Shown: in pieces, positions 12,406 through 58,010 of the stretch
How positions within the stretch are numbered: the stretch's first letter is position 1
Layout: each line of letters starts with the position of its first letter
Origin: Microbulbifer sp. HZ11
GTDB lineage: Bacteria > Pseudomonadota > Gammaproteobacteria > Pseudomonadales > Cellvibrionaceae
Length of the DNA: 64,000 bases
NCBI RefSeq assembly: GCF_000708675.1
Contig: NZ_JELR01000001.1
Span: 248,001-312,000, forward strand
Direction of reading: 5' to 3'
Translations under genes and position numbers: made by a program
Notes under the pieces: model-generated
The model's database searches: none
The model's input: only the letters and a program-made list of their open reading frames with translations
Told to the model about the DNA's origin: nothing

Positions 12406-12449
12406 AAGCCAACCCCGAAACGTCGGTAGTGATTACCGACACCAGCATA

Positions 12450-12712
12450 GGGAAACTCTGACCAAGTCCGTAATGCCTCAGCGTGACCTGAAGGCAGTAG
12501 CTGTAAGGCGCAGCTCGCAGTGAATGGCTCGCCCTTTACAAGAGCTGCAACGCAGCAGATGCTGTCTTCAGGTCGCGCCCTGCGGGGCTTTCAGAGCGAT
12601 TCACACTCTGCGTTGTGACTTCTTGAAAGGTCTAGACATTCCTGCGAAACCACGCCTTGATTGTGAACCGCTCTGAAAGCCTGAGGCATCATGGACTTGG
12701 TCAGAGGTTCCC
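12450..12712. mobile_element. 263-bp element with 32-bp inverted ends and two inner hairpins (MITE-like)
   Basis: The ends 12450-12481 and 12681-12712 are inverted repeats matching at 29 of 32 positions. Inside, 12485-12497 pairs with 12562-12574 (12 of 13), and 12587-12605 pairs with 12662-12680 (18 of 19); the second inner arm directly abuts the right end. Single-stranded, the element folds into a three-way junction: one long closing helix and two arms. No open frame of useful length lies within, so if mobile it is non-autonomous. I see no clear target-site duplication. The outermost bases GGGAACCTCTGA recur at 27285. It fills the gap between rdgC and the DUF4136 gene. Confidence 0.75.
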
Positions 12713-12782
12713 TTGATTCGGGCTGGCGTAAAAAACATTGCTGGAACCGGCTGGTCATTTGGGGGCGATTTCGCTCCCGCCT

Positions 12783-23725: not shown

Positions 23726-25081
23726 ATGGCCGGATTACTCATGATCACATTGACATACATACTCAACGGGCTCAGACGCTGTCTGGGTGGGTTGCCCGTT
23801 TTGTGCACATTACTTCTCGCCACCTTCACAACCCTCAGTACTACAGTGAATGCGGAACAGATTGCGGTGCACGCGGGCTGGCTGTTCGATAGTGAAAAAG
23901 GGCGCCTGCTGGAAAAACGTACGGTACATATCGTGGATGGCAAGGTGGAGTCTGTGGAGCGAGGCTTCAACCAGCGCGAAGGTGAGCGGGTAATCGATCT
24001 CCGCGCTTTCTCTGTGTTGCCCGGCTTGATGGATATGCACACGCACCTCTCCTATGAGTTTGGGCCGCGTACTTACACAGAGGCCTTCACGTGGAACCCG
24101 GCGGATTACACACTGCGCTCGGTGAATACAGCGGAGCGAACTCTCAAGGCTGGTTTTACTACCGTGCGGGATCTCGGAGACAGCGGCAACGTCACGGTCA
24201 GTCTGCGCAATGCCATCAATCGGGGCGATATCATTGGCCCGCGGATATATACGGCAGGTAAATCCATCGCTACCACCGGCGGCCACGCAGACCCGACCAA
24301 TGGCCATCGTCACGACCTGATGGGCAGCCCCGGCCCGGCGGAGGGTGTGATCAATGGTGTGGCCAGTGCCCGCGAGGCTGTGCGGCAGCGCTACAAAGAG
24401 GGTGCGGATCTGATCAAAATTACCGCCACCGGAGGCGTGCTGAGTGTGGCCAAAAGTGGCCAGAATCCGCAGTTTATGCAGGACGAAGTCGAGGCGGTGG
24501 TAGAGACGGCAAAAGACTATGGGCTCACCGTGGCGGTGCACGCCCACGGAAAAGAGGGTATGCAGCGGGCAATTCGCGCGGGTGTGGATTCTATCGAGCA
24601 CGGCACCTACATGGATGATGAGACCATGGGGATGATGGTGGACCATGGCACCTGGTATGTGCCAACGCTGCTCGCCGGTGACTGGGTCACTCAAAAGGCC
24701 GCGGTGGAGGGTTTCTTCCCGGACATGGTACGTACCAAGGCAGCCAAAATTGGCCCCCTGATCCAGGATACGTTCAATCTTGCGCACAAAAAGGGCGTGA
24801 AAATCGCGTTTGGTACCGATACCGGGGTAAGCCGGCACGGGGATAACGCGAAAGAATTTGCATTGATGGTGCAGGGTGGTATGAGCCCTGCCGATGCGAT
24901 CCGCTCGGCCACCTGGAATGCGGCACAGTTGCTGCAGGTCCAGGATGAACTGGGCAGCATTGCCCCGGGTAAGTGGGCGGATATGGTGGCGGTGATTGGT
25001 AACCCCTTGGAAGATATCACTACCCTTGAACGGGTTCGGTTTGTGATGAAGGGTGGGGAGGTTTACAAGCAGCCCGAGTGA
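23726..25081 (+). CDS. Exported amidohydrolase (Xaa-Pro dipeptidase/imidazolonepropionase-like)
   Basis: The 451-residue protein has a long N-terminal hydrophobic segment ending near VNAEQ, best read as a signal peptide. The amidohydrolase TIM barrel follows with HTH at 105-107 ([12 protein letters not shown]), a probable carboxylated lysine strand in [10 protein letters not shown], metal histidines in [11 protein letters not shown] and [11 protein letters not shown], and the catalytic Asp in [11 protein letters not shown]. This set matches periplasmic metal-dependent hydrolases shown in other bacteria to cleave Xaa-Pro or N-acyl amino acids. Substrate is not determined. The convergent SIMPL gene follows, with a palindromic repeat element between them. 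Confidence 0.9.
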
Positions 25082-25120
25082 TTTCGAAGGCTGAATAGTG
25101 CGTATGCGTTTGGGCGAACG

Positions 25121-25230
25121 TGGCACTGACGGGGATAGGTGTGTGAGACCTTCACCGCCAGGGATGGCGGTGCAGAGCCCCCAGGGATGGGTTCACGGCG
25201 TGTCTCGCACACCTATCCCCGACAGTGCCA
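25121..25230. repeat. Palindrome-armed repeat element, copy 1
   Basis: Arms 25121-25149 and 25202-25230 are inverted repeats matching at 27 of 29 positions. Inside lies a hairpin at 25153-25172 (8-bp stem, loop GGGA) and a conserved 30-nt core at 25175-25204 that can form a second hairpin, GAGCCC with GGGTTC. The element has the same organisation as copy 2 at 56510-56610, in the opposite orientation. It sits between two convergent genes, where a terminator would be expected, and may serve as one structurally although no T-run follows. Confidence 0.85.
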
Positions 25231-25253
25231 CCGCTACCGGGGCAAATAATTTT

Positions 25254-25979
25254 TTACTTGGCTAGTTCAAAAACGAGTTCCACATTCACCGATACCGAAG
25301 TCTCCCCCGGCGCCACCGGCGTGCTGGCACTGTCTTTGGCCATGGCACTTTCTGCGCGCATTACCATTGGGCGCGGCATGCCGCCGTGGCTGCCCTCCGA
25401 GATGCTCACAATTCTACGTACCTTGGTACCCAGTGCTTCCGCATAGGAGTCCGCGCGGGCCTGAGCCATTTTCAGGGCTTTTTCCCGGGCTTCCCCCAGC
25501 AGGGGTTCCGGATCGTCGATGGAGAAACTGGGGCCGTGGATCTGGTTGGCACCTTCCGCGGTCAGTGCGTCGATCACTTTGCTCAGGTCATCCAGTTTGC
25601 GCACGGTAATACTCACACTATTGCGGGCCTGGTAGGCAATGATCTTGCGTTCGCGGTTGGGCTGGTAGTCGTAGCGCGGGTTGAGGCTGATGCCGCTGGT
25701 CTGCACATCTTTTTCCTCGATACCGGCTTTCTTGATTGCCCGCATGACTTTTTCCATCTGCTCAGCATTGGCCTGCATGGCTGCCTGGCTTTCATCGGCT
25801 TCGGTAACCACGCCCGCGGAAATGTTTGCGATGTCTGGTACCTGGCTGGCTTCTCCCTGTGCCGAGATACTGATCAATGTGCCTGCCGGGCGCTCGTCGG
25901 TGTCGCTACCGCATCCGGTTGCGAAAATGGCGAGGCCGGCAATCAGGCCAGCGGAGAAAAGCTTTATGGTCTTGTGCAT
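25254..25979 (-). CDS. SIMPL-domain lipoprotein (YggE/DUF541 family)
   Basis: The 241-residue product has a lipoprotein signal with lipobox FATGC (Cys23). The SIMPL/DUF541 domain spans most of the rest, with ISAQGEASQVPDIANISAGV, KAGIEEKDVQTSGISLNPRY and a C-terminal VSVNVELVFELAK strand. Members form periplasmic or membrane-linked oligomers; E. coli YggE lowers oxidative stress effects, but a molecular activity is not established. The gene is convergent with the exported amidohydrolase, separated by the palindrome-armed element, and its promoter region ends near the PLP enzyme gene. Confidence 0.9.
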   Translation of the reverse strand: MHKTIKLFSAGLIAGLAIFATGCGSDTDERPAGTLISISAQGEASQVPDIANISAGVVTEADESQAAMQANAEQMEKVMRAIKKAGIEEKDVQTSGISLNPRYDYQPNRERKIIAYQARNSVSITVRKLDDLSKVIDALTAEGANQIHGPSFSIDDPEPLLGEAREKALKMAQARADSYAEALGTKVRRIVSISEGSHGGMPRPMVMRAESAMAKDSASTPVAPGETSVSVNVELVFELAK

Positions 25980-55750: not shown

Positions 55751-56455
55751 TTATTCGGCGGGGCGAATGGTGTGCATCAGGTAGTTGACGTCGACGTCCC
55801 TCGGATTCAGTTTGTACTGTTTGGTGAGGGGATTGTAGGTCATACCGGTGATGTCGCGGGTTTGCAGGTCTGCTTCCCGTACCCAGCGCCCCAGTTCTGA
55901 CGGGCGAATAAATTTGCCGTATTCGTGGGTGCCTTTGGGCAGCATGCGTAGGACGTATTCGGCTCCGACCACGGCAAACAGCCACCCCTTGGGGGTGCGG
56001 TTGATGGTGGAGAAGAAGACGTGGCCGCCGGGTTTGACGAGCTTGGCACAGGCGCGGATTACCGAAGAGGGGTCCGGTACGTGTTCGAGCATTTCCAGGC
56101 AGGTGACGATGTCGAAGCTGCCGGGCTGGTTTTCGGCCAGCTCTTCCACGGGGATGCGTTGGTAATCGATCTTTACGCCGGATTCCAGGGCGTGCAGTTT
56201 GGCGACGTTCAGTGGGGCTTCGCCGAGGTCGATGCCGGTGACATCGGCGCCGCGCTGCGCCATGGCTTCGGTGAGAATGCCGCCGCCACAGCCTACGTCG
56301 AGCAGTTTTTTGCCGGCGACGGGTGCGCGCTGGTCGATGTAATTGGCGCGCAGGGGGTTGATCTCGTGCAGGGGCTTGAATTCACCCTGCTGGTCCCACC
56401 AGCGGCTGGCCAGTTGTTCAAATTTGGCGATTTCCGCCGGATCTACGTTGATCAT
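55751..56455 (-). CDS. ubiG: Ubiquinone biosynthesis O-methyltransferase UbiG
   Basis: UbiG makes both O-methylations of ubiquinone synthesis, acting at the inner membrane. The 234-residue protein has [20 protein letters not shown] at the N-terminus, motif [21 protein letters not shown] (about 51-70), and the membrane-binding [17 protein letters not shown] region. mupP follows 18 bases after its stop, so both are one operon. The palindrome-armed repeat element lies immediately upstream, between this gene and the mtaD-like gene. Confidence 0.95.
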
Positions 56456-56509
56456 TTGGGCCTTGTTTAGGTTGTGGGGTCCGTTATTCCCACCTGCAGT
56501 GGCGCCGTC

Positions 56510-56610
56510 GCTCCCGGTAACCGTTTCCGGGACACGCCGTAAACCCGTCCATGGGGGCTCGGCTGCGGCCGTCCTGGCCGCAGACGGTCCCGGAAACGGT
56601 TACCGGGAGC
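56510..56610. repeat. Palindrome-armed repeat element, copy 2
   Basis: Arms 56510-56533 and 56587-56610 are a perfect 24-base inverted repeat. The inner hairpin at 56563-56583 has an 8-bp stem, and the 30-nt core at 56531-56560 (on the minus strand) matches copy 1 at 27 of 30 positions. Both stems differ in sequence from copy 1 but keep pairing. It lies between the mtaD-like gene and ubiG, both on the minus strand, with no T-run. Confidence 0.88.
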
Positions 56611-56648
56611 GCCAGCTTCGATTCTTGGTGTTTGGCTTCGTTAGCAGC

Positions 56649-58010
56649 CTAGTGCGTGCGACCCGCGATTCTATCACGCCAGTTCGCCGCCCGTTGCTTC
56701 AGTTCTTCTTCATTGAGTGTGGTGAGTTTGCGGTCTTTCAGCAGCTGCTTTCCGGCCACCCACACATTGCGCACATGGTGACCGTTGGCGGTGTAGATCA
56801 GCTGTGACAGCGGGTCGTGCAGGGGTTGTTGTTCCAGGGCGCTGAGGTCGATGGCACACAGGTCTGCGGCTTTGCCTACTTCAATGCTGCCAGTGACATC
56901 GTCAATGCCCAGGGCGCGTGCACCGTTGATGGTGGCCATGGCGAGGGCCTGGTGGGCGGGGAGGGCGTCGGCCTGTCCGGAGACGGCTTTGGCCAGTAGT
57001 GCGGCGGTGTTGGTTTCCGCGAGCATGTCGAGGCCGTTGTTGCTGGCGGCGCCGTCGGTGCCGATGGAGACGTTGATGCCGGCTTCCAGCATTTTCGCCA
57101 CCGGGCTGAATCCGGAGGCCAACTTGAGGTTGGAGCGTGGGCAGTGGCTGATGTGGGCGCCGGTTTTCTGGATCAGGGCGATGTCATCGTCGTTCAGTGC
57201 GGTCATATGTACGGCCAGGAATTGAGGGGAGAGCAGGCCGAGGTTGTGCAGTCGTTTTGTGGGGCGTTGGCCGGTCTCGGCCACGGCGCGTTCTACTTCG
57301 CCGGCGGTTTCGTGCAGGTGCATCTGCACCGATATTCCCAGCTCGTTGGCGTAGATGGCAATTTTCTTAAGGGTCTCGTCGCCCACGGTGTAGGGCGCAT
57401 GTGGGGCGAAGGCGACGCCGATGCGGTGGTGGGAGCGGTAATCGTCCCGCAGTGCCAGCCCTTTTTCGATGGCGTCGTCGCCATTTCTGGACCAGTTGTT
57501 GGGGGAGTCGATGATTGGGAAGGCGATCTGGGCGCGCATGCCGGCTTCGCGGACGGCGGCGGCGGTGGCTTCCGGGAAGAAGTACTGGTCGCAGAAAGTA
57601 GTGGTGCCGCTGCGCAGCATTTCGGCCATGGCGAGTCTGGTGCCGTCGCTGACGAATTCCGGGCCGACCCACTGTTGCTCCGCGGGCCAGATGTGTTTTT
57701 CCAGCCACGTCATCAGCGGATAGTCGTCGGCGAACCCCCGCAGCAGACTCATGGCGGCGTGGTTATGGGTGTTGATCAGCCCTGGAATAAGCAGTTGATC
57801 ACCAAGCTGCCGTTCTTCCTTTGGTGCGAAGCGGTTGCGGGCTTCACTGCTGGGCAGGATGGCGGTGATGGTGCCGTTAGTAATCGCCAGTGAGCAATTT
57901 TCGTACAGTCGCTTTTCCGGTACTACCGGAATAATCCAGCGAGCGTGGATCAGGGTGTCGATCGCCTGTTTATTGTGCGTTCTTTCAGTGGGTGCGGTGC
58001 GGTTTACCAT
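56649..58010 (-). CDS. mtaD: Amidohydrolase: 5-methylthioadenosine/S-adenosylhomocysteine deaminase-like
   Basis: From ATG 58010 the 453-residue protein has the amidohydrolase metal site HNH in NTHNHAAMSLLRG, later His in VAFAPHAPYTVG and EHTAL-type VQMHLHE, and the catalytic Asp in VSIGTDGAASNNGLD. It matches TRZ/ATZ-family deaminases found beside ubiG in Pseudomonas (PA3170 type), which deaminate MTA or SAH. The frame is open 25 codons upstream, but the ATG gives the normal start. The gyrA promoter region is divergent from it. Confidence 0.88.
   Translation of the reverse strand: MVNRTAPTERTHNKQAIDTLIHARWIIPVVPEKRLYENCSLAITNGTITAILPSSEARNRFAPKEERQLGDQLLIPGLINTHNHAAMSLLRGFADDYPLMTWLEKHIWPAEQQWVGPEFVSDGTRLAMAEMLRSGTTTFCDQYFFPEATAAAVREAGMRAQIAFPIIDSPNNWSRNGDDAIEKGLALRDDYRSHHRIGVAFAPHAPYTVGDETLKKIAIYANELGISVQMHLHETAGEVERAVAETGQRPTKRLHNLGLLSPQFLAVHMTALNDDDIALIQKTGAHISHCPRSNLKLASGFSPVAKMLEAGINVSIGTDGAASNNGLDMLAETNTAALLAKAVSGQADALPAHQALAMATINGARALGIDDVTGSIEVGKAADLCAIDLSALEQQPLHDPLSQLIYTANGHHVRNVWVAGKQLLKDRKLTTLNEEELKQRAANWRDRIAGRTH

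Follow-up and report, generated by a model that had tools for sequence, protein, structure and literature searches.

The two long palindromes in the window (the whole 64,000-nucleotide stretch of Microbulbifer sp. HZ11 DNA analyzed here) are, with high confidence, copies of a non-autonomous, MITE-like palindromic repeat of the YPAL/RU-2 kind. The best overall explanation of this repeat, to which we give slightly less than an even chance, is that its GGA strand, as folded RNA, offers a paired site for CsrA/RsmA. The evidence presented here concerns structure, covariation, loop conservation, a strand-specific pairing bias, placement, and taxonomic spread.

Both copies lie where the first-pass annotation had located two palindrome-armed repeats, with the edges off by a few bases (Table 1), and its count of 27 identical positions in a 30-nt core was recovered. 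Over 30 positions outward from the junction, the arms form 27 Watson-Crick pairs plus one G.T pair in copy 1 and copy 2 alike; the repeat search gave 93% complementarity of the arms in each. The plus strand of copy 1 folds with -83.3 kcal/mol (z -9.15) and the minus strand of copy 2 with -87.8 kcal/mol (z -9.70), none of 200 shuffles being as good in either case. The fold also agrees with the annotated inner hairpin, which is unlike in sequence between the copies yet paired in both. The core pattern, allowing up to 3 mismatches, matched the window twice versus 0.00 matches expected. A covariance model (R1) found copies 1 and 2 alone in the window at E<=1, with 93.3 and 88.1 bits, but these matches are not independent evidence since both copies (L029 and L003) were among its 84 training sequences. 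The gene preceding copy 1 ends 32 bases short of the element. The consensus ends used in Table 1, GCGAAGG and CCGCCAC, were derived from 93 copies in two genomes, of which 88 contributed a left and 90 a right end.

Table 1. Features of the two copies of the repeat and of the neighboring genes (positions in the window)
Feature	Position	Strand	Description	Basis
Copy 1, whole element	25114..25237	+	GCGAACG to CCGCTAC	ends set by family consensus
Copy 1, outer stem, 5' arm	25120..25149	+		pairing count and repeat search
Copy 1, hairpin 1	25153..25172	+	CACCGCC-AGGGAT-GGCGGTG, loop AGGGAT	fold
Copy 1, hairpin 2	25177..25199	+	GCC-CCC-AGGGAT-GGG-TTCAC(bulge)-GGC, loop AGGGAT	fold, helices 3 and 4 of the covariation analysis
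Copy 1, outer stem, 3' arm	25202..25231	+		pairing count and repeat search
Copy 2, outer stem, 3' arm of the element	56504..56533	- (element on minus strand)		repeat search
Copy 2, hairpin 2	56536..56558	-	loop ATGGAC, TTTAC bulge	placed by analogy with copy 1
Copy 2, hairpin 1	56563..56583	-	CTGCGGCC-AGGAC-GGCCGCAG	fold
Copy 2, outer stem, 5' arm of the element	56587..56616	-		repeat search
Gene upstream of copy 1	23726..25081	+	presumably amidohydrolase-like, by reading alone	listed ORF start; gene caller starts at 23846
Convergent gene past copy 1	25254..25979	-	presumably SIMPL-domain-like, by reading alone	gene caller
Gene downstream of copy 2 in its own direction	55751..56455	-	presumably a methyltransferase (UbiG-like), by reading alone	gene caller
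Gene upstream of copy 2 in its own direction	56649..58010	-		gene caller

Another large branched palindrome lies at 12449-12713 of the window, with 33-nt outer and nested 23-nt arms and a fold of -153.5 kcal/mol; three full-length copies of it (itself counted) and one partial copy occur in the genome.

That the palindromes belong to a dispersed repeat is supported by the many copies found in the HZ11 genome. A 21-nt core pattern (<=3 mismatches) occurred at 69 places, compared with 3 for the reversed control, and the stretches retrieved around such places yielded 62 distinct copies with this type of core. R1 gave at least 140 matches at E<=0.01, the last few of them weak; as 150 candidates were scored, the total may exceed 140. 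The element is a three-way junction of about 124 nt, composed of an outer stem of about 30 bp (29 to 30 bp in most own copies) and two hairpins. It spans from GCGAAGG to CCGCCAC, with little conservation past about 10 nt outside in 93 copies from HZ11 and its relative G021, and a conserved promoter is not supported because the flanks have no strong consensus beyond that distance. Hairpin 1 has several stem types, while the stem of hairpin 2 is CCC..GGG in type A and TACA..TGTA in type D, with a TTYAC bulge following it. The arms differ by lineage, as judged by eye among the matches listed. Extra modules are nested in the loop of hairpin 1 in L013, L040, and L049 and in L019, L045, L053, and L063, one of them resembling, by eye, a worn reversed copy of hairpin 2.

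The first-pass annotation had described the palindromes as structured, with two helices that covary independently of each other and a loop of constant type, and had proposed a genome-wide search for copies and a test of arm covariation. Both were carried out on the own genome and its relatives, and the outcome, drawn from many-copy alignments, upholds the description. Alignment A1 comprised the 51 copies (50 distinct), out of 67, that have a 33-nt inner stretch. In A1, 95.9% of the cells were paired (78.1% in shuffled alignments), two-sided changes were seen in 396 cells (102.4 in shuffled ones), and 33 of the 45 pairs had changed on both sides (22.0 in shuffles); the covariation score was 0.505, compared with 0.159 for shuffled alignments and 0.113 for the best slid version. 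Alignment A2 consisted of 84 sequences picked for diversity from 148 copies with pairing arms, covering several genera and two core types. Here the figures were 91.3% versus 60.5% paired cells, 598 versus 174.1 cells with two-sided changes, and a score of 0.731 versus 0.178. The 22 pairs changed on both sides in A2 were matched by 18 of 500 shuffles and the 72 further pair types by 121 of 500, because nearly every pair varies.

The loop of hairpin 1 is conserved on many different stems. GGA was present in the loop or closing bases of hairpin 1 in 208 of 223 copies (49/54 own type A, 24/25 in G021, 112/120 in other species, and 23/24 own type D) and absent there in 15; hairpin 2 was left out of this count because, for the other species, the search pattern itself had dictated it. 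The GGA-to-GGA spacing was 20 or 21 in 152 of the 223 copies, and the raw spacing of 11 obtained for another 39 reflects a GGA in the stem of hairpin 1, on its 3' strand.

If the DNA duplex alone, or each of the two strands, were of importance, G.T and A.C mispairs should occur in similar numbers. On the GGA strand of the arms, G.T outnumbered A.C by 35:2 in the own genome, 19:1 in G021, and 85:12 in other species, as counted at positions flanked by Watson-Crick pairs in 45/54, 22/25, and 86/112 copies, respectively, with weak stems dropped. The ratio over all A1 helices was 66:9. The A2 columns had no strand bias (arms 32:23, hairpin 1 8:16, total 40:40), which we put down to gapped, mis-registered columns because direct reading of those arms restores the bias: 4:0 for own type A, 17:4 for the others, and 2:2 for own type D, 23:6 overall. 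A direct reading of hairpin 1 that gave equal scores to G.T and A.C yielded 8:2, 1:0, and 6:3, plus 2:0 for type D (17:5 in sum). The strand bias is strong in type A, with own type D arms at 2:2. In copies antisense to both neighboring genes, the ratios were 14:0, 7:1, and 23:1 (own, G021, and other species). Since the bias of the GGA strand persists there, the selected feature is probably the fold of one strand, the one with GGA, rather than just the tail of an mRNA. Single-stranded DNA would be expected to show a comparable bias.

The element, left unnamed in the first-pass annotation, can be named because it aligns with the published Yersinia pestis RU-2/YPAL. The RU-2 letters printed in the accessible part of PMC2759123 align with it in equal order through both hairpins, the TTYAC bulge, and GGCG, and the fold of Y. 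pestis RU-2 is branched in a similar way (z -3.22) and has one small hairpin more. As far as the available parts of the YPAL/RU-2 descriptions go, the likeness covers the order of the parts, the hairpin loops, the bulge, the core letters, the placement after genes, and the dispersal of copies, intergenic copies scattered near gene 3' ends being found here as well. The differences are of length and outline: about 124 nt with a nearly unbroken stem of about 30 bp here, as opposed to RU-2, given as 168 nt in the same part of PMC2759123, where the arms as printed form a stem interrupted by an internal loop. Several core types and inverted doublets also set the present family apart from YPAL/RU-2 as described in those parts. 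Further material for comparison is found in the accessible parts of Table 1b of PMC2759123 and of PMC2267715, and the visible part of a table in PMC2847712 counts 3 YPAL in E. coli. A literature search with the core letters matched one bacterial paper, PMC2759123, the others being unrelated by title, and searches under related words gave nothing on this element among the papers listed.

At the Rfam gathering cut-offs, nothing was reached in the window, and no TwoAYGGAY/Ysr224-type RNA families were found in 38 loci. At a low threshold, TwoAYGGAY matched the window at full length with 25.3 of 43 bits and Ysr224 matched the other strand with 18.7 of 70; microRNA and other families among the low-threshold matches were taken for chance. 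Ysr224 (RF02770) had 49 places in the own genome at E<=1, the best with 44.9 bits, and none above its cut-off of 70 there or in any of 274 genomes of the class. Its consensus reads as the complement of our element, with the difference that it models the antisense strand, and Ysr224 as a whole resembles a YPAL-type repeat read in antisense. TwoAYGGAY (RF01731), according to the available part of PMC2864571, likewise consists of an outer stem enclosing two hairpins whose loops are of the A-N-GGA-Y form; it differs in the lengths between the parts and in scoring below its cut-off, and is a sub-threshold relative of the element.

The element is patchy in its genus: a strict pattern found it in 28 of 58 relatives (own genome included). 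With stricter filters, the covariance model matched 52 of 274 sampled genomes of the class, belonging to 46 of 222 genera; Stenotrophomonas, Xanthomonas, Rheinheimera, Oceanisphaera, Marinobacter, and Sodalis were among the matches listed.

The CsrA/RsmA site has a known consensus, and pairs of sites a known bridging distance. A CsrA-binding RNA has GGA in hairpin loops and two sites within that distance, as found here, and since this is the layout expected for one CsrA/RsmA dimer site, RNAs transcribed across the element would be expected to bind CsrA or titrate it. The GGA strand would then act as a folded molecule, most probably RNA, in which the long outer stem, nearly free in sequence, would serve as a clamp and the three-way junction would hold the two hairpins, with loops of the A-N-GGA-Y type, about 20 to 21 nt apart (GGA to GGA). 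The repeat would spread to sites just downstream of genes, sometimes as inverted pairs. Through the two GGA hairpin loops as putative sites, the repeats may act on the regulator CsrA. We infer the RNA nature of the element, transcription of its GGA strand, CsrA binding, and the mode of movement. Sponge RNAs of the CsrB/RsmZ type also carry GGA in hairpin loops, but they are single genes with many sites, whereas the present element is a dispersed repeat with two. A match of TwoAYGGAY to the CsrA-site motif, itself a prediction, is reported in the accessible part of PMC4333381. The gene for CsrA was found in 48 of the 52 genomes with the element and in 187 of the 222 without, a co-occurrence that decides nothing because CsrA is about as common without the element; the element but no CsrA match was seen in G076, G137, and G168 (67 to 88% complete) and in G263 (98% complete). 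No papers dealing with both YPAL and CsrA were found in a search that had most subscription journals outside its reach. A bolder version, which we consider doubtful, is that these are selfish repeats of Gammaproteobacteria with a bivalent CsrA/RsmA site, the copy number of which would tune the regulator, and that the copies in a slot would be rewritten or exchanged and not lost.

A rival explanation, possible though not likely, is that the fold serves movement, the GGA strand being a folded single-stranded DNA or RNA intermediate for an enzyme, as REP is for RAYT. The strand bias would then be the footprint of passing a movement filter, since resident copies are often exchanged. The orientation of the copies relative to the neighboring genes is free (own copies, n=62: ++27, --19, +-13, -+3; other species, n=112: ++25, --31, +-32, -+10, and 14 with a missing neighbor), so that many copies lie antisense to the nearest gene, which also tells against the CsrA reading. 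Moreover, among the 140 own matches there were 17 neighbors within 400 bp (random mean 2.0, maximum 6 in 500 trials), and all 17 were inverted, 14 of them minus-then-plus with the 5' ends facing and 149 to 195 bp apart. By eye, the linkers and outer flanks are partly complementary in the doublets L008, L314, L317, L319, L320, L321, L322, L323, L324, and L333, which suggests a larger unit. Intergenic palindromes and inverted doublets are also typical of REP/REPIN with RAYT, but the unit here is a three-way junction without a matching pattern of Y1 genes.

Comparison of slots also speaks for movement. A counterpart in 1.6 Mb of G021 was found for 27 of the 62 own slots, 22 with a core and 5 without; the slots of L023 and L055 hold no remnant at all there, by eye. 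Of the 22 slots, 8 carry the same copy and 14 differing ones, three of them reversed (L019, L052, and L057); in the 14, the arms are strongly unlike and hairpin 1 is mostly of another type. L017, L019, L021, and L053, mis-sliced owing to inserted modules, were classed by eye, L017 and L021 as same and L019 (reversed) and L053 as differing. The G021 slot matching L015 is occupied by a different palindrome containing GCGAAGG. At the copy-1 slot, 30 loci of the genus (own included) have, by eye, a terminator-like hairpin, a full element in one orientation or the other, or a remnant consisting of arms alone, and in G031 and G028 the element lies inside a terminator-like palindrome. Empty and filled sites, reported for YPAL in the accessible part of PMC2229807, are thus seen among the relatives too, with no clean footprint at the copy-1 and G021 slots. 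An extended form of the element sits in the loop of terminator-like hairpins in L041, in L046, and at the copy-1 slot in L075/L079; it is surrounded by direct repeats of 10 bp in L041 and 8 bp in L046, and by a 17-bp inverted repeat in L041.

Against movement as the reason for the fold stands, first, that the two copies of a differing slot resemble each other a little more closely than mismatched pairs do: in 12 such slots, arm identity was 0.60 to 0.79, with a mean of 0.711 versus 0.664 for mismatched pairs, a value reached in 10 of 2000 permutations (same-copy slots, 0.91 to 1.0). L017, L019, L021, L053, and L069 were omitted from this comparison by name, and a stricter core search dropped others. 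Not all slot differences need therefore be exchanges; the residual likeness hints at pairing kept in place, and rewriting in place and exchange of whole copies may both be at work. Second, Y1 transposase matches, relevant to the check for a RAYT-like gene proposed in the first-pass annotation, do not track copy number in the genus (no Y1 match was found in G012, with 5 copies, or in G022, with 3), and on this presence of the Pfam family in one genus Y1 transposase was rejected as a partner; no mobilizing enzyme was found among those looked for. Third, YPAL is described in the accessible part of PMC2229807 as inserted at dyad targets with duplications of 3 to 26 bp, but a general target-site duplication is weak at best here: direct repeats of >=8 flank 12.6% of 87 copies, a small excess over the approximately 5% of 1500 random pairings, and inverted repeats 11.4%, again versus about 5%. 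Finally, movement leaves the choice of GGA as the kept loop unexplained.

The suggestion that a mobile core captures flanking palindromes is not supported, as the arms share a lineage consensus and the ends of the element are fixed. In keeping with this, arm-only hairpins are rare (58 own-genome matches of the GAAGG..CCGCCAC pattern, with one clear core-less arm hairpin by eye), and the flanks have few paralogues: compared with 1.6 Mb of G021 and the own loci retrieved, most matched nothing beyond themselves and their orthologous site; exceptions are L008 (partner copy), L041/L056 (extended form), L042, L062, and the G021 copies near 872,982 and 1,485,171. Carriage by phage was rejected (no phage match), as was carriage by plasmids: 2 plasmid records matched 42% of copy 1, and 12 records covered 32 to 40% of the Sodalis element, which had no match in E. 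coli genomes.

Improbable in our estimate is an mRNA 3'-end hairpin that ends or protects transcripts, the role proposed for YPAL, even though the placement is what it predicts. All 62 own copies are intergenic (own gene caller, looked over in two window regions), 13 of them between convergent and 3 between divergent genes. Between genes of the same direction, 32 of 46 copies are nearer the 3' end (median 27.5 versus 81.5 bases, p 0.011), and an ordinary terminator-like hairpin replaces the element at the copy-1 slot in several relatives. The bias toward the GGA strand even where both neighboring genes run opposite argues against this role, and a plain stem needs no kept GGA loops. Least probable is a neutral palindrome kept perfect by template switching in replication, which would fit A1 arm columns 19-24 (151 two-sided changes, one one-sided change, and 0 unpaired cells) but gives no reason for G.T over A.C on one strand or for keeping the GGA loops.

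A Yersinia repeat thought of as a local hairpin is now tied to a structured element of many gammaproteobacterial genera. The strand-specific pairing bias is a reason to seek a folded RNA or single strand in it and not a passive terminator. The link to CsrA, now directly testable, would mean, if true, that each new copy adds CsrA-binding capacity and that a mobile element tunes a global regulator.
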